A DNA stretch of 64,000 bases, from NCBI RefSeq assembly GCF_007997295.1, contig NZ_VORY01000016.1, positions 1 through 64,000 of the forward strand. The letters are read 5' to 3'. The notes beneath the pieces are model-generated. The model was given only the letters and a program-made list of their open reading frames with translations, had not been told where the DNA came from and made no database searches. Position 1 is the stretch's first letter. Every line of letters begins with the position of its first letter. The position numbers and the translations under genes are program-made. This document shows positions 11,534-53,518 of the stretch, piece by piece. This DNA comes from Gillisia hiemivivida (GTDB taxonomy: Bacteria > Bacteroidota > Bacteroidia > Flavobacteriales > Flavobacteriaceae).

Positions 11534-11862
11534 ACTTAACTATAATGTGTTAGCAGGACATTACAATTATAAGACCGCTTGAAAATAAATTTAAGCTTTC
11601 CGGACATTAAGCATAAGAACATACTATTAATCAATGCTTTAAGGATATTTGTTTTTTAATTTATTAAGCAAACTATATATCACGTGATCAAATTATCCCA
11701 CCAATGTGTGGAAATATTACATAATGTAAAAAAAAGTGAGGTTGTGATGGAGTGAAGAGTACGATGGTGTAACGCTGTAACCGACTGAAGGAGTGTCCGT
11801 GTGACGCTGTGATGAAGTAACGCAGTGAAGGAGTGACCCAGTAATGAAGTAAAGAATAAAAA
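11534..11862. other. Intergenic gap with 8-bp repeat array
   Basis: This is 329 bp between the deacetylase gene and the first polymerase-like gene. The part next to the deacetylase stop is the degenerate repeat array at 11736-11855. The rest is AT-rich and I see nothing else in it. Confidence 0.6.
11736..11855. repeat. Degenerate 8-bp array, GTRANGNN orientation
   Basis: The array includes units GTGATGAA, GTAACGCA, GTGAAGGA, GTGACCCA, GTAATGAA near its right end, in 8-bp register, with less regular units further left. It ends just 7 bp from the TAG of the deacetylase gene at 11863. It belongs to the same family as the arrays at 12945, 15268, 15513, 51145, 51854, 51912 and 53388. Confidence 0.8.
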
Positions 11863-12834
11863 CTAACGAGTTAACAAACCAACGTCATTCATTGTCACTG
11901 ATTGAAATCCGTATTTCTCATTACAAACTAAATAATGATTTAGAATTTCCTTTAAGTCGGCGAGGTTCTCATCAGGATTGTTTCCAAAATTATGAGGATG
12001 CCACCACAAATGGTAAATTTCATTATTTTTTGCTGCGGTTGTCATTTCCGATTTAATCCTTTCTAATTTTAGATCGTTGAAAAATTTATTTGCAGAATAA
12101 GGACGCAATAACCTGCTAGCTTTTTGAGCCAAGGGTTTTCCTTGTCCAACATTCAAATCTGTTAACTTGTATGATTTATTATTGGAACCTAAATATGCAT
12201 CGCCTGTTCTGAAAATTTTATTTGCTAGAGAATCATTTTGAGTGTCTTTCCAATACCAATCGGTTGGATTGGATCGCACATTTTCGATTCCTAATTCATA
12301 ACAAGCCTTTAAATATTCTTCATTGAATTGATTTCTCGGAAATACTAGGGATTTAAGTTCTATTCCCAGTTGTTTGGCGAGTTTTATAGATTTCTCTAGA
12401 TCGGCTTTGAAGGAGGCTAAAGTCTGACCTTCTTCCAGGCAATAATAATGTGAATAGGTATGGGTTCCAATTTCCTGATTAGGAGTTTTTTGGATTTGCT
12501 GAACAAGATCCTTTGCGAAGCAAAAAAATTCTGTCTCCGGCGAATTTAATGCTTTGCCATAATCATAAGCTGAAAGATTAGTGTTTTTATAATTTGGCAA
12601 AATTTTCGGTATATTATCCTCCCATTCCTCCCAATTTTTATTGAATAACATTCCCACGGTAGCCCATGTACAATGAATTTCATATTCTGAAAACAGGCCT
12701 AAAATTTCCGGAATAACTCTTCGCGTATTTTTAAAGTAAGTTTCCTTTTCTTTATAATTCACCTTGTCGAAAACTCCCCAAAGAAGTTCAAAGTCAAGAG
12801 AAATTACTAAAAAGCCGTTTATTGATTGGTTCAT
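11863..12834 (-). CDS. Polysaccharide deacetylase-family protein (NodB-like)
   Basis: The 323-residue protein opens with FLVISLDFELLWGVFD, a variant of the first NodB motif, in which Asp acts as base or metal ligand. It later has IGTHTYSHYY, the second NodB motif with two metal-ligand His residues, and a C-terminal YHLWWHPHNFG. It has no signal peptide or membrane helix, so it would act in the cytoplasm, perhaps on a lipid-linked or nucleotide-linked N-acetyl sugar. It sits between two paralogous polymerase-like genes, and array repeats flank it on both sides. The substrate is unknown. Confidence 0.82.
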   Translation of the reverse strand: MNQSINGFLVISLDFELLWGVFDKVNYKEKETYFKNTRRVIPEILGLFSEYEIHCTWATVGMLFNKNWEEWEDNIPKILPNYKNTNLSAYDYGKALNSPETEFFCFAKDLVQQIQKTPNQEIGTHTYSHYYCLEEGQTLASFKADLEKSIKLAKQLGIELKSLVFPRNQFNEEYLKACYELGIENVRSNPTDWYWKDTQNDSLANKIFRTGDAYLGSNNKSYKLTDLNVGQGKPLAQKASRLLRPYSANKFFNDLKLERIKSEMTTAAKNNEIYHLWWHPHNFGNNPDENLADLKEILNHYLVCNEKYGFQSVTMNDVGLLTR

Positions 12835-12856
12835 TCGTTGATTCGTTAATTCGTTT

Positions 12857-12895
12857 ACCCCCCAGCCCCCTAAAGGGGGAGAAGGAGATTTTTTT
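12857..12895. repeat. C/G-rich hairpin, part of composite repeat
   Basis: The element contains CCCCCTAAAGGGGG, a perfect short palindrome, followed by agaaggagattttttt. A near-identical copy lies at 15447-15483. In both places it is followed by 7-bp repeats, then 'caaataacac' or 'aaaataacac', then an 8-bp array. An intrinsic terminator is possible, but the T-run is displaced from the stem. Confidence 0.75.
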
Positions 12896-12944: not shown

Positions 12945-13040
12945 AGTATTACTTCATCACAGCGTCACTTCTATACTCCTTCACTCTTTCACTCTTTCAC
13001 TCCATAACATCGTCACTTCATCACAGCGTTAGATCGTCAC
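12945..13040. repeat. Degenerate 8-bp array (NNCNTYAC) overlapping a gene end
   Basis: Units such as TTCATCAC and AGCGTCAC (12953-12968), and again TTCATCAC, AGCGTTAG, ATCGTCAC (13017-13040), are in 8-bp register. A less regular TTCACTC stretch lies between. The array runs 12 bp into the 3' end of the gene at 13029 and supplies its TAA stop. Confidence 0.8.
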
Positions 13041-15184: not shown

Positions 15185-15247
15185 TTTTCGGTTTTCAGTT
15201 TTCAGTTTTCAGTTTTCAGTTCTCGGTTTTCGGTTTTCAGTTTTCAG
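15185..15247. repeat. 7-bp tandem repeat (nine units) abutting the GNAT start codon
   Basis: Nine contiguous 7-bp units, mostly ttttcag with variants ttttcgg and ttctcgg, begin 1 bp from the ATG of the GNAT gene. In the mRNA they read as CTGAAAA/CCGAAAA units up to the start codon, with no separate Shine-Dalgarno sequence. Shorter 7-bp tracts occur at 12904 and 15484 in the same composite element. Confidence 0.9.
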
Positions 15248-15267
15248 TTTACTATTCAAAATAACAC

Positions 15268-15445
15268 AATATTACTTCATCACATGGTCACAATTTCACT
15301 CCATCACAACGTAACTTGTTTACCCTTCACTCTTCACTCCATAACATCGTCACTCTTAACCCTTCACACCTTCACAGCATCACTCCTTCACAGCATCACT
15401 CCTTCACTTTACGCAGCTTTACTTCATCACTCCGTCACTAAATTT
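15268..15445. repeat. Degenerate 8-bp array (NNCNTYAC)
   Basis: The array starts AATATTAC, TTCATCAC, ATGGTCAC, AATTTCAC, TCCATCAC in register. It later has AGCATCAC, TCCTTCAC twice in alternation, then AGCTTTAC, TTCATCAC, TCCGTCAC. A few units are damaged. The whole gap 15184-15575 is filled by repeats; I see no gene in it. Confidence 0.85.
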
Positions 15446-15446
15446 T

Positions 15447-15504
15447 ACCCCCCGCCCCCTAAAGGGGGAGAAGGAGATTTTTCTGTTTATTGTTTATTGT
15501 TCCA
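15447..15504. repeat. Second copy of C/G hairpin plus 7-bp repeat
   Basis: The C/G-rich block with CCCCCTAAAGGGGG and agaaggagattttt repeats the one at 12857-12895. It is followed by 7-bp units tgtttat, tgtttat, tgttcca (15484-15504) and then another 8-bp array. Confidence 0.75.
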
Positions 15505-15512
15505 AATAACAC

Positions 15513-15587
15513 AATATTACTACTTCATCACTACCTCACTCCGTTACAATTTTACTTCGTCACTTCATCACTCCTTCACTTCATCAC
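15513..15587. repeat. Degenerate 8-bp array overlapping the end of a GT4 gene
   Basis: From 15524 there are eight consecutive units in perfect register: TTCATCAC, TACCTCAC, TCCGTTAC, AATTTTAC, TTCGTCAC, TTCATCAC, TCCTTCAC, TTCATCAC. The last two lie over the final codons and the TGA stop of the gene at 15576. Confidence 0.9.
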
Positions 15588-49686: not shown

Positions 49687-51084
49687 TTAGCTACCAATTG
49701 CATAAAATTCAAAACCAAAGTCTTCCTTTGTCTTTCTATTTAAAAGTCTTCTACCGTCAAAAAGGAATGCTGGTTTTAGCATCTCAATATAGATTTCTTG
49801 CCAATCTAATTCTTTAAATTCATCCCATTCGGTTAAAATCGCAACCGCGTGAGAATCTTTACAGGCATCCTGTGCTGCATGTACCACCTTTACCCTCTCT
49901 CTTATTTCCTCAGAGCTATGAGTACCCAGATATTCAAGATCTGCATAAATCTGTTCCTTTTTAACCTTGGGATCATAAACTATTATATCTGCCTGTTCAT
50001 TCAAAAGATAATCTGTAACATAAATTGCTGCAGATTCCCTGGTATCATTGGTATCTTTCTTAAAGGCCCACCCCAGAATTGCTATTTTCTTACCTGAAAC
50101 AGTATTGTATAAAGTTTTTACGATTTTTGCGGCAAACCTTCTTTTTTGATGATCGTTCATTATAATTACCTGTTCCCAATAGTCAGCAACCTCATTTAAT
50201 CCGAAGGATTTGGAAATATAAACCAGGTTCAAAATATCCTTTTGAAAACAAGAGCCACCAAAACCTACTGAAGATTGAAGGAATTTTGGACCAATTCTGG
50301 AATCCATTCCTACTGCTTTTGCCACTTCATTTACATCTGCCCCTGTTTTTTCACATAATTCGCTCATTGCGTTGATGCTTGAAATTCGCTGGGCTAAAAA
50401 TGCATTAGCAGTAAGTTTTGATAATTCGGAAGACCAAACATTAGTAGTCAAAATATTCGCTTCAGGAACCCAATGAGCATATACATCTACCAGAGCCTGT
50501 ACTGCATCCAGGCCTCTCTCAGTGTCAATATCGCCTCCAATTAAAATCCTGTCGGGATTTTGAAGGTCCTGGACTGCCGTCCCTTCTGCTAAAAATTCCG
50601 GATTGGAAAGTATTTGGTAATTCACGCCGTTCCCGGTGTTATCTAATATATTTCTCAAAGCCTCGGCCGTACGCACCGGCAATGTAGATTTTTCAACTAC
50701 TATTTTATCGTTTTTTGAAACTCTGGCAATTTGCCTTGCGCAGAGTTCGATAAATTTTAAGTCGGCAGCCATCCCCTTTCCAATTCCGTAGGTTTTGGTG
50801 GGGGTATTTACCGAGATAAAGATCATATCAGCTTTATCAATAGCTCCGTCCACGTCTGTTGAAAAGAATAAATTCCTTCCGCGGGCTTCTTTTACAATAT
50901 CAGACAATCCCGGTTCGTAAATAGGAATATTCTCTACATCCTCATCATTCCAGGCAGCGATCCTGCTCTTGTTTATATCTACAACGGTTACATTAATTTC
51001 AGGACACTTTTGGGCAATTACAGCCATTGTTGGCCCTCCTACGTAACCGGCGCCGATGCAGCAGATGTTTTTTATTGTACTCAT
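49687..51084 (-). CDS. ugd: UDP-glucose 6-dehydrogenase, animal-type
   Basis: The ATG at 51084 gives [20 protein letters not shown]; a TTG seven codons earlier is less likely. The 465-residue protein has the NAD motif [28 protein letters not shown], the catalytic Cys in [17 protein letters not shown] and the C-terminal [16 protein letters not shown]. These details match the metazoan-like Ugd subgroup found in Bacteroidota. It oxidises UDP-glucose to UDP-glucuronic acid, which feeds the 4-epimerase at 57120. An array of 8-bp repeats (51145-51495) lies upstream. Confidence 0.94.
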
Positions 51085-51144
51085 TTTAATGTTTTTTTTA
51101 ACCAACTAATTTTTTAAGTGATACAATGATCCTGCTTGTTATTT

Positions 51145-51495
51145 GTGACGGAGTAACGAAGTGACCAAGTAAACATGTAACCCAGTGACGAAGGGTTTTA
51201 GTTACGGAGTGACCATGTGATGCAGTGACGGAGTTTTGTGCATAGTTCTATAACACCATTTCATTACTTCATCAGTGACGATGTGACGCAGTAACGTAGT
51301 CTCTTTTTAACTTCGTTAATCTATCACAGTAAACATGTAATGTAGTGACAGAGTAACGTAGTTTTTATTCAACTTAGTTGCTCATTATAGTTCACTCCTT
51401 AACAACATTACTTCATCACTGCATCACATGGTCACTTCTTCACTTCTTTTCATCACAGCGTCACTTCGTCACAACATTACTTCGTTTCTTCATCA
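51145..51495. repeat. Facing degenerate 8-bp arrays upstream of ugd
   Basis: The left part reads GTGACGGA, GTAACGAA, GTGACCAA, GTAAACAT, GTAACCCA, GTGACGAA, with further GTRACG-type groups to about 51360. The right part (from about 51393) reads TCCTTAAC, AACATTAC, TTCATCAC, TGCATCAC, ATGGTCAC, TTCTTCAC ... AGCGTCAC, TTCGTCAC, AACATTAC. The two parts are on opposite strands, so the transcript could fold. The 408-bp gap 51085-51492 contains no gene. The right end supplies the TGA stop of the gene at 51493. Confidence 0.88.
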
Positions 51496-51840
51496 CTCCT
51501 TCAAACTCTGTATTAATTTCAACAACATTCTGCGAATGTAAATTGATTGTTCTTCTAATTCTTTATTTTCTGCTATAAATTTTAACTTACCAGCAATTTC
51601 CAATTGCGTTTCTACTTCTGCCAGTGAACCTAATGAAATATGTAAAAATCTAATAAATTCCTTTTTACTATTTCTGGCAGCGCCTTCTGCAATATTTGAA
51701 GGGATAGAAATCACCGCCCTTCTAAGCTGACTTGTTAAACCAAATCTTTCCTCAACAGGGAAATTTTTAGTTAAAGTGTATACTGCAACAACAAGATCAA
51801 TACTTGATTTATAAACGGTTAAGTCTTTGTGTGATTTCAT
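51493..51840 (-). CDS. Four-helix-bundle protein (23S rRNA intervening-sequence family)
   Basis: The 115-residue protein begins MKSHKDLTVYKSSIDLVVAV and has FGLTSQLRRAVISIPSNIAE with GAARNSKKEFIRFL, then SLGSLAEVETQLEIAGKLK. This is the signature of the family first known from intervening sequences in 23S rRNA genes. Its function is unknown. It stands alone between ugd and the WbpO-like dehydrogenase gene and is flanked by complementary 8-bp arrays. Its TGA stop is part of an array unit. It looks like an inserted cassette rather than a pathway enzyme. Confidence 0.9.
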   Translation of the reverse strand: MKSHKDLTVYKSSIDLVVAVYTLTKNFPVEERFGLTSQLRRAVISIPSNIAEGAARNSKKEFIRFLHISLGSLAEVETQLEIAGKLKFIAENKELEEQSIYIRRMLLKLIQSLKE

Positions 51841-51853
51841 TTTTTTGTTATTT

Positions 51854-51889
51854 GTGACGCAGTGAAGCTGTGAAGGAGTGACGCAGTTT
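51854..51889. repeat. Degenerate 8-bp array, GTRANGNN orientation
   Basis: Four units in register, GTGACGCA, GTGAAGCT, GTGAAGGA, GTGACGCA, lie just upstream of the four-helix-bundle start. They face the 21-unit array at 51912 across a spacer of about 25 bp. Confidence 0.85.
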
Positions 51890-51911
51890 TATTTAAACTT
51901 AGTCTCATAAC

Positions 51912-52079
51912 AGCATCACTTCGTTACAACATTACTTCTTCACTTCGTTACTCCATCACTGCGTTACAACATTACTTCATTACAGCGTTACTTCATTACA
52001 ACTTCACTTTATCACTTAGTTACAACTTCACAGCTTAACTTCTTCACAACTTTACAGCGTCACTTCGTCACAACTTTAC
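51912..52079. repeat. Register-perfect 21-unit array of a degenerate 8-bp motif (NNCNTYAC)
   Basis: Twenty-one consecutive 8-mers follow without a single indel: AGCATCAC, TTCGTTAC, AACATTAC, TTCTTCAC, TTCGTTAC, TCCATCAC, TGCGTTAC, AACATTAC and so on to AGCGTCAC, TTCGTCAC, AACTTTAC. All have T at position 5 and AC at 7-8. Nearly all have C at 3 and C or T at 6. The first two bases are free between a few choices (TT, AA, AG, TC, TG). The last unit contains the TAA stop of the dehydrogenase gene at 52076. Confidence 0.95.
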
Positions 52080-53356
52080 AACTTCTTATCACACCTGTCT
52101 CCCAAAACACCCTTAACATCATATACCACGGCATTATCAGACTTAAGATCATTAAATTCTAAATTCAAAAACTCTTTATGAGCCACTGTTAAAACAATTG
52201 CATCAAATTTTTGATCTGGCAATGATTTAGATGTAGACAAATCATATTCATGCTTCACTTCTTCAGGATTAGCCAATGGATCGTAAATGGTAATATTAAC
52301 TCCATATTCCTTCAAGTTCTTAATTACATCCACAACCTTTGTGTTTCTTACATCCGGACAATTTTCTTTAAAAGTAATTCCCAAAATTAAAATTTCTGCT
52401 CCTTTTACTTTTATGTCATGCTGAAGCATAAGTTTAACTACCTCGCTAGCGACATATTGTCCCATAGAATCATTCATTCTTCTTCCTGCAAGAATAATTT
52501 CAGGATGGTACCCAACTTCCTGAGCTTTTTGTGCTAAATAATAAGGATCTACCCCTATACAATGCCCACCAACCAAGCCAGGCTTAAATGGTAAAAAGTT
52601 CCATTTTGTACCTGCTGCTTCTAAAACATCATTGGTATCTATATCCAACATATTGAAGATCTTAGCTAATTCATTTACAAAAGCAATATTGATGTCTCTT
52701 TGAGAATTTTCTATAACTTTTGCAGCTTCAGCAACCTTAATAGTTGGAGCTAAATGGGTCCCAGCTGTAATAACAGATTTATAAAGATCGTTGACTCTTT
52801 GTCCAATTTCAGGTGTAGAACCTGCGGTTACTTTTAAAATTTTATCTACGGTATGTTCTTTATCTCCTGGATTTATACGCTCTGGAGAATAGCCTGCAAA
52901 AAAGTCCACATTATATTTTAATCCACTAACTTTTTCAAGCACAGGGATACATTCATCTTCAGTTGCACCTGGGAATACCGTAGATTCATAAATTACAATA
53001 TCTCCTTTTTTGAGAACCTTTGCTACCGTTTCACTACTCTTATATAATGGAGTAAGATCTGGTCTATTATTTTTATCTACCGGTGTTGGTACAGTAATAA
53101 TATAATAATTACAATCTTTTATGTCATCTAAATTAGTAGAGCAATAAAGACCTATTTTATCTGATGGCTTATCTACTAAAGATGCCATTAATATATCTTG
53201 TTCTACTTCTAAAGTGGAGTCAACACCAGTCATGAGTTCCTTTACTCTAGAATGATTAATGTCGAATCCAATTACAGGAAACTTTGTTGCAAATAATCTA
53301 GCTAAAGGTAATCCTACGTATCCTAAGCCAATGATTGCAATTTTAATATTGTTCAT
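52076..53356 (-). CDS. UDP-N-acetylhexosamine 6-dehydrogenase (WbpO/TviB-like)
   Basis: The 426-residue nucleotide-sugar dehydrogenase has NAD motif IAIIGLGYVGLPLARLF, YIITVPTPVDKNNRPDLTPL, ESTVFPGATEDECIPVL, the catalytic Cys in PGLVGGHCIGVDPYYLA and ILGITFKENCPDVRNTKV. The VGGHCIGVDPYYL form marks the WbpO/TviB group that oxidises UDP-GlcNAc or UDP-GalNAc to the uronic acid. The WbpP/TviC-like epimerase gene directly upstream is the usual partner. The TAA stop lies in the last unit of the 21-unit repeat array. It starts at an ATG. Confidence 0.92.
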   Translation of the reverse strand: MNNIKIAIIGLGYVGLPLARLFATKFPVIGFDINHSRVKELMTGVDSTLEVEQDILMASLVDKPSDKIGLYCSTNLDDIKDCNYYIITVPTPVDKNNRPDLTPLYKSSETVAKVLKKGDIVIYESTVFPGATEDECIPVLEKVSGLKYNVDFFAGYSPERINPGDKEHTVDKILKVTAGSTPEIGQRVNDLYKSVITAGTHLAPTIKVAEAAKVIENSQRDINIAFVNELAKIFNMLDIDTNDVLEAAGTKWNFLPFKPGLVGGHCIGVDPYYLAQKAQEVGYHPEIILAGRRMNDSMGQYVASEVVKLMLQHDIKVKGAEILILGITFKENCPDVRNTKVVDVIKNLKEYGVNITIYDPLANPEEVKHEYDLSTSKSLPDQKFDAIVLTVAHKEFLNLEFNDLKSDNAVVYDVKGVLGDRCDKKL

Positions 53357-53387
53357 TTTATAATTTGTTGATTCGTTAATTTTTTTT

Positions 53388-53518
53388 GTAACGGAGTGAC
53401 CATGTGATGGAGTAACGTAGTTTAATCGTTTCCTTCGCTCAATATTACTTCATTACATTTTTACTTCTTTTTTTTCACAGCATTACTTCATCACAGCATT
53501 ACTTCTTCAAAGCATCAC
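53388..53518. repeat. Facing degenerate 8-bp arrays between dehydrogenase and epimerase genes
   Basis: The first half is GTAACGGA, GTGACCAT, GTGATGGA, GTAACGTA (53388-53419). A spacer of about 21 bp follows, then AATATTAC, TTCATTAC, ATTTTTAC, an irregular T-run, AGCATTAC, TTCATCAC, AGCATTAC, TTCTTCAA, AGCATCAC. The last unit provides the TGA stop of the epimerase gene at 53515. The rest of the gap has nothing else visible. Confidence 0.88.

Follow-up and report, generated by a model that had tools for sequence, protein, structure and literature searches.

The window analysed here, that is the whole stretch of DNA of 64,000 nt, carries a minus-strand operon in which a small gene of the S23 family is flanked on either side by genes of the UDP-glucose/GDP-mannose dehydrogenase family (49687-51105 and 52076-53356). 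The spacers around the small gene contain tandem arrays of a degenerate 8-bp unit, NNCNTYAC, which reads GTRANGNN in the sense of the operon. The features of this cluster and the other arrays of the window are the following.

49687..51105, minus strand: downstream gene, second member of the UDP-glucose/GDP-mannose dehydrogenase family
51145..51192, minus strand: distal opposite-oriented array of 6 units, which aligns to the 21-unit array over 44 nt with 36 identities
51207..51222, plus strand: GAGTGACCATGTGATG, in a degenerate stretch, complementary to 51422-51437 with 1 mismatch; the word recurs at 53394-53409
51329..51360, minus strand: opposite-oriented array of 4 units
51388..51443, plus strand: array of 7 unit positions, oriented like 51449..51496
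51449..51496, plus strand: array with 6 unit positions that overlaps the S23-family stop codon
51493..51840, minus strand: S23-family gene, 115 aa, 23S_rRNA_IVP (PF05635, E 3.4e-37) / TIGR02436 four helix bundle protein
51854..51885, minus strand: opposite-oriented array of 4 units, between the 21-unit array and the start codon of the S23-family gene
51912..52079, plus strand: the reported array, 21 units of NNCNTYAC, including the stop codon of the 426-aa UDP-sugar dehydrogenase
52076..53356, minus strand: upstream operon gene, 426 aa, UDP-glucose/GDP-mannose dehydrogenase family
53388..53419, minus strand: array without an S23-family gene, one arm
53471..53518, plus strand: other arm of this pair without an S23-family gene, at the stop codon of a 332-aa epimerase
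11801..11856, minus strand: array without an S23-family gene
12945..13040, plus strand: array without an S23-family gene that extends into the 3' end of a 403-aa ORF
15268..15323, plus strand: array without an S23-family gene
15360..15407, plus strand: array without an S23-family gene
15524..15587, plus strand: array without an S23-family gene that extends into the 3' end of a 370-aa glycosyltransferase

Splitting the window sequence at 51912-52079 gave 21 consecutive 8-mers without an indel, as the first-pass annotation had reported. The T at position 5 and the AC at positions 7-8 are present in 21/21 units, C occupies position 3 in 19/21 (the exceptions being TTTATCAC and TTAGTTAC) and position 6 is C or T in 20/21. 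The impression that a small vocabulary is reused also held, with 5 dinucleotides at positions 1-2 compared with a mean of 7.0 if the columns were independent, a count of 5 or fewer being reached in a fraction of 0.0014 of 5000 shuffles. Likewise, arrays of even 4 such units were found in 0/100 order-2 and 0/100 order-5 Markov sequences made from the window. The array extends from the stop codon of the UDP-sugar dehydrogenase gene to 72 nt from the 115-aa S23-family ORF. Its 8-mers are contiguous and lack spacers, and are thus distinct from the long identical repeats and unique spacers of a CRISPR array; no Rfam family reached its gathering score in window positions 11000-55000. The adjoining S23-family gene and the oppositely oriented partner arrays had been absent from the earlier description. 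Rather than standing alone as a satellite, the array forms one arm of an imperfect inverted-repeat unit around the S23-family gene. Read along the transcript of the minus-strand operon, the order is 21 GTRANGNN units, 4 units of opposite sense, the S23-family gene, two GTRA arrays, the opposite-sense arrays at 51329-51360 and 51145-51192 and finally the next dehydrogenase gene.

Related arrays had been noticed in at least seven other places; we found 12 further arrays of 4 units or more in the window, and the 13 arrays are spread over about six intergenic regions. Their reported near-confinement to the glycan locus is correct for this unit, since 21 of the 24 matches of the 4-unit pattern in the 3.73-Mb genome fall in the window. 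The remaining 3 lie on contig C52, which also bears an S23-family gene with NNCNTYAC arrays near it (L035), and the reversed control pattern gave 0 matches. The pattern is present in 11/60 genomes searched, this one included, although these counts are not all specific because the reversed control scores too in several genomes (e.g. G001, G022 and G052). Other repeats were seen in the same spacers. About 9 copies of the 7-mer TTTTCAG occupy 15185-15250, and TTTTCGG copies are found in the nearby orthologous spacer of the related genome G001, so several array types share these spacers. An 8-mer array of TTGATTCG at 12822-12855 resembles the unit around a different S23-family gene in G001. Moreover, CCCCCTAAAGGGGGAG followed by AAGGAGATTTTT, at about 12866-12881 and within 15407-15524, constitutes a second intergenic repeat with a palindromic core, and similar stretches occur in G001 spacers.

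The arrays stand in opposite orientations on both sides of the S23-family gene, and the folding of the transcript was predicted. A long stem was predicted within 51106-51496 (z -8.45, 0/100 shuffles as good), and the whole 974-nt element gave z -6.36 (0/20 shuffles as good) with an outer predicted stem that encloses the S23 gene. Folded alone, 51843-52079 was modest, with z -2.55 and 1/200 shuffles as good, and because the other strand of this stretch folds too (z -4.03) the folding does not tell an RNA from a DNA constraint. For the gene-less pair at 53370-53518 the fold was not significant (z -1.04, 32/200 shuffles as good). The arms are lopsided, 21 units against 4 to 6, and most units of the long arm therefore need not pair. 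A mirror-image order of the units was considered as proof of inverted duplication and gained no support overall, the long arm and its partner giving p 0.076 in unit shuffles, with no excess over all array pairs.

The nearest solved structure to the S23-family protein of the window is 2gsc; in an excerpt of PMC4990558 the S23 protein of Xanthomonas is a homopentamer of four-helix bundles, and S23/IVP (‘four helix bundle’) proteins are there described as being without known function. Among 156 intact S23-family proteins, Q38, S45, N49, E52 and E75 are near-invariant. The net charge is just mildly positive (median +2), so that nucleic-acid binding by the protein is conjectural. Differential expression of an S23-family gene in a fish-pathogenic Flavobacterium (PMC5787105, excerpt) indicates that genes of this family can be transcribed.

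To relate the arrays to stop codons we surveyed the window together with 21 further regions, picked because they contain arrays with 5 or more units; 49 such arrays were counted. In the GTRA sense 17/49 lie within 20 nt of a stop codon, compared with 2 of the opposite sense. In 14 of these 17 the stop codon falls within a unit, and 14/17 share one register (distances -3, -11 and -19). TAA or TGA occurs in nearly every GTRA unit and the period of 8 puts stops in all frames, so that translation running into such an array is terminated. Further stops at +7, +14 and +21 after the stops of upstream genes were counted in 17, 19 and 15 of 86 cases, compared with 73, 71 and 61 of 890 control stops. 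We do not claim the in-register stop codon as a targeting signal, since the register of 14/17 follows partly from the stops in nearly every unit. At four loci (L129, L102, L087 and L143) the predicted N-termini of downstream genes resemble translated arrays, e.g. THHSPLTTDHSPFP.

The proximity to stop codons in one sense, the stops in every frame and a same-strand gene just upstream of the S23 gene in 86/95 loci (the set is defined below) would suit a regulatory device of the host, in which the stem after the stop codon would work as a 3'-UTR hairpin or like an attenuator and control how strongly the downstream glycan genes are expressed, its effect being tunable by array length. The neighbours across taxa, however, have no function in common, comprising genes that we take from their N-termini to be leuB-, folD-, sufB- and rmlA-like as well as cas genes; the lack of significant stability of the gene-less hairpin at 53370-53518 also speaks against it, and we consider a regulatory role quite improbable.

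We examined whether arrays accompany S23-family genes elsewhere, using as a first set the best 80 of 580 confirmed matches to the window's S23-family protein in named genomes; by record title these belong to Bacteroidota, Cloacimonadota, Acidobacteria, Geobacter and other groups, many being MAG contigs. In a lag analysis of these best 80 of 580 (24/32 matches required), period 8 was detected in 9/80 downstream and 7/80 upstream flanks compared with 0/366 distant positions, period 7 in 19/80 and 16/80 compared with 10/370, and period 9 in 4/80 and 2/80 compared with 0/380. With seven of the ten matching genes of this genome and eight genus or family loci added, the set comprised 95 loci. Here the best period (5-12 tried) was 7, 8 or 9 in 37/37 upstream and 44/44 downstream flanks over the threshold, compared with 9/309 distant windows, and was equal on both sides in 22/24 loci.

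Furthermore, the upstream flank matched the reverse complement of the downstream flank with a score of 20 or more in 46/93 loci, while the controls at this score gave 28/1095 for flanks of mismatched loci, 5/447 for other positions and 3/465 for shuffles. In direct orientation 13/93 loci reached the score, and some loci (L083, L207 and L214) have direct instead of inverted arrays. The comparison of scores within and between loci indicates that the flanks of one S23 gene often match, inverted, while the units vary among loci. A second set was drawn from the 125 matches to PF05635 in 21 relatives, of which 80, mostly with higher scores, were taken together with the seven own genes (86 usable; it overlaps the first by the own genes and eight relatives' loci). 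It gave an inverted match at score 20 in 23/86 compared with 14/850 controls. The best period was 7 or 8 in 45/46 upstream and 38/40 downstream flanks over the threshold, with equal sides in 21/24; when the threshold was lowered to 18, 65/86 showed an array or an inverted match.

In the same loci, arrays were found in 18/50 upstream and 22/38 downstream S23 spacers and in 35/333 other co-directional spacers, which is a 3.4-fold enrichment upstream and 5.5-fold downstream; for inverted flanks at score 20, the figures were 42/82 for S23 genes and 13/320 for other small ORFs. The enrichment at S23 genes thus persists against other spacers but is smaller than that against distant positions. With about a tenth of the other co-directional spacers bearing such arrays, a count that may include spacers adjoining another S23 gene, arrays without an adjacent S23 gene are common, and this counts against a specific tie. 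It suits a simpler explanation, namely that arrays of period 7 to 9 arise and expand by slippage in spacers as ordinary intergenic repeats which S23 genes merely share; so does the fact that among the arrays of the window just the 51-52-kb cluster adjoins an S23 gene. On such an explanation the enrichment at S23 genes over other spacers, the inverted match of two flanks within but not between loci, and the equal period on both sides in those 22/24 loci (of the 95, with the best 80 of 580 among them) are not expected, and we regard it as rather unlikely.

Slippage as a process is nevertheless supported. Between this genome and G001, three orthologous arrays changed in length, from 6 to 22, from 8 to 25 and from 12 to 22 unit positions (in the last case as two arrays that adjoin), and five neighbouring proteins are 83-96% identical despite the change in length. 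This is in line with the replication slippage proposed by the first-pass annotation, and such fast length change between orthologous spacers is also what the purely slippage-born origin predicts. In the G001 spacer next to the 426-aa gene, the S23 protein is just 30% identical to that of the window and a TTAGTTCG-type unit lies beside TYAC arrays.

Two operon sites occur with long and with short spacers. Of the 13/16 genus genomes in which folD was found, 5 have a long ffh-folD spacer (451-469 nt) and 8 a short one, which measures 54-115 nt in seven and 210 nt in the eighth, where an array and a remnant seem by eye to be retained. Of the 15/16 in which the CoA-transferase gene was found, 9 have a long spacer between the A and B genes (411-438 nt) and 5 a short one (12-136 nt), with 1 unassigned; by eye, TTCAAATC-like units are still present in 4/5 of the short ones. 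The S23 copies of G006 are interrupted by internal stops at both sites and that of G005 at the CoA site; the ffh-folD copy of this genome has one stop, and the long CoA spacer of G013 has no S23 match among the PF05635 matches. The comparison is treeless, and insertion and loss at these operon sites are not separable by it. S23-family matches number 0-16 per genome in 21 relatives, 19/125 having internal stops. For intact S23 stretches at the two sites, broken copies left out, dN/dS was 0.06-0.25 in 11/18 pairs; dS was saturated in the other seven pairs and many of the computed dS values are above 1, which makes the ratios rough. Among the proteins compared, the most similar within one genome are 72% identical, so no recent transposition is seen. 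In terms of an IS or MITE, the S23 gene is the sole ORF of at least 80 aa between the arms and short versions of the sites were seen; a target-site duplication was not delimited in this comparison.

Whether unit and protein go together was examined by several comparisons. The NNCNTYAC unit also accompanies the two S23 proteins most closely related to that of the window, one of them 86% identical (and classed as the same locus) and the other 66%, and relatedness to the protein gave a weak signal for this unit (5/87 proteins, p 0.007). Of 485 different-locus pairs with at least 55% identity, 14% exceed the 95th percentile of low-identity pairs in their array words. A general specificity between unit and protein was rejected, with a Mantel r of -0.03 and p 0.78 (167 proteins, same-locus pairs masked).

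At one conserved site in six Flavobacteriaceae, with S23 proteins 63-92% identical, the unit varies by species and the flanks, by eye, are still alike in inverted orientation. This variation with likeness across the gene suits pairing better than a fixed binding site, and it bears on a further reading, that the units are DNA sites for a nucleoid or partition-like protein. The regular 8-nt spacing and the invariant T5, A7 and C8 of the reported array would fit such sites; a spacing of 8, however, is not the helical repeat of DNA, and the units change between orthologous sites. We therefore consider DNA binding very improbable, though similar paired tandem octamers of Geobacter metallireducens were called predicted global regulator binding sites (PMC2700814, excerpt), the proposal on which this reading is modelled.

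Two further groups of loci extend the picture. In Luteimonas salinisoli an S23 gene lies between accB- and accC-like genes (which we presume to be accB and accC), with GGGAATC units upstream and their inverse downstream. These units are the repeat published for Xanthomonas (PMC4692102, excerpt).

In a protein search, 43 plasmid records proved to contain S23-family genes; at least 26 of these records are from Nostoc, Calothrix, Aulosira, Trichormus or Anabaena. Of 12 plasmid loci examined, 10 have repeats of period 7 or 8 (at least 19/24 matches) on at least one side, that of L204 looking like chance, and the inverted flank match exceeded all 100 shuffles in 8/12. The units include GGGAGTA/TACTCCC and GGGAACA/TGTTCCC. 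At 4/12 loci (L203, L204, L210 and L214) the S23 gene is antisense to both annotated neighbours, a poor fit to a cistron of the neighbours' mRNA. At three others (L205, L207 and L208) it lies between cas6 and cas4, or between cas10 and a Cmr3-family gene. A figure legend of PMC10910872 (excerpt) names the S23-family protein, and these cas-adjacent genes in 3/12 plasmid loci may bear on the appearance of the family in CRISPR-associated gene searches.

The protein family, the inverted arrays, the predicted fold, the enrichment in many taxa, the presence and absence at fixed sites, the low dN/dS of intact copies at two sites and the fast turnover are the computed support for our main reading. We suggest, with a probability of about 0.5, that an imperfect inverted repeat, with the array as its 5' arm, flanks an S23-family (PF05635) gene between two co-directional glycan genes, the whole being an intercistronic analogue of the rRNA intervening sequences (IVS) whose stems are built from arrays. 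In the polycistronic mRNA the arms would form an irregular duplex, which RNase III or a similar nuclease would cut, by analogy with the rRNA intervening sequences, releasing the S23 cistron; the operon mRNA would thereby be split at the spacer and not inside a gene. The arrays would lengthen and shorten by slippage, the variation being limited to what still permits some pairing, and arrays without an S23 gene, as are most in the locus of the window, would be relics or gene-less versions. Against this reading we count the results of PMC4692102 (excerpt) on stability, mobile elements and Nostoc, which are given below. The weak folds of 51843-52079 and 53370-53518, the lopsided arms, the unit order without clear mirroring, the direct arrays and the antisense plasmid genes count against it also, as do the lack of recent copies, the Mantel result and the mild net charge.

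The short tandemly repeated repetitive (STRR) sequences of cyanobacteria are heptamer arrays, like those around the S23 genes on cyanobacterial plasmids, and we know of no link drawn between STRR sequences and S23 genes. A further parallel is offered by the GGGAATC and GGGGAYT heptamers of Xanthomonas and Nostoc (PMC4692102, excerpt), with which the present arrays share degenerate tandem units in variable number, inverted pairs (in Xanthomonas) and a coding-strand preference just after stop codons; the unit there has 7 nt, is G-rich and forms G-quadruplexes, whereas that of the NNCNTYAC arrays has 8. Convergent heptamer pairs number 70 and 75 in two Xanthomonas strains and lie near stop codons, while in Nostoc, which has the GGGGAYT form, such pairs are few and none of the repeats is on the plasmids of that strain (same excerpt). 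The heptamers have no general tie to mobile elements and stability is increased near them, according to that excerpt, which favours the slippage-born origin discussed above. The words ‘four helix’, ‘S23’ and ‘xcc0516’ have 0 occurrences in the main text of PMC4692102.

The paired tandem octa- and heptanucleotide sites of Geobacter metallireducens (PMC2700814, excerpt) likewise are tandem 8-mers paired on opposite strands at variable distance; they differ in being read by their authors as predicted regulator sites, and the excerpt mentions no S23 gene, ‘23S’ occurring 0 times. In Beggiatoaceae, Cyanobacteria and some Bacteroidetes, direct repeats of TAACTGA (PMC4679880, excerpt) are also intergenic short tandem repeats common to distant taxa, but consist of one fixed 7-mer, lie mostly just upstream of start codons in the main genome there and include one indirect repeat; ‘four helix’ and ‘23S’ have 0 occurrences in that paper. 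A survey cited there found heptamers to be the most abundant class of 5-11-nt repeats in most genomes, a further point for ordinary slippage. PF05635 also resembles Avd of diversity-generating retroelements in sequence and structure (PMC10053308, excerpt). The protein of the window stayed well under the Avd cut-offs, with 23.7 bits for NF033474 (cut-off 80) and 20.8 for Pfam bAvd (cut-off 40).

The statement of the first-pass annotation that no described element has this grammar is thus right only in part. Degenerate tandem repeats of short units that have inverted partners close to stop codons have been published (PMC4692102 and PMC2700814, excerpts), as has TAACTGA (PMC4679880, excerpt), so for short inverted heptamer and octamer arrays it does not stand. 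None of the open-licence papers listed by full-text searches was seen to connect S23/IVP genes with short-period arrays, and among the papers listed by a search with the letters of the repeats no title looked related. What may be new here is this tie. A wider proposal, which we hold to be unlikely and put forward as speculation, is that S23/IVP genes belong together with short-period inverted arrays in a single widespread element of two parts. The S23 pentamer would bind the stems and help to make, copy or homogenise them, and the repeats of Xanthomonas, Nostoc, Geobacter and Beggiatoaceae would be mostly gene-less remains. Intergenic arrays of short period have repeatedly been described without a clear role, and the tie gives the arrays and the protein a testable partner each: one can ask whether the stems are bound by the S23 protein and cut by RNase III, and whether the element is mobile.

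The system closest to our main reading is the 23S rRNA IVS with an S23p ORF in Coxiella and Leptospira (PMC4990558, excerpt). Such sequences are reported to be freed by RNase III-like cutting, and S23p was suggested not to be made in vivo in the organism studied there (same excerpt). The present element lies between two dehydrogenase genes, in an mRNA spacer and not in a 23S or 16S rRNA gene, and its stems are degenerate tandem arrays instead of the one 28-bp stem. What the two have in common is a patchy distribution and a small S23-family ORF, here at 51493..51840 with its clear PF05635 match, set between complementary sequences that form stems, which in our case are inverted arrays with predicted, imperfect and lopsided pairing.
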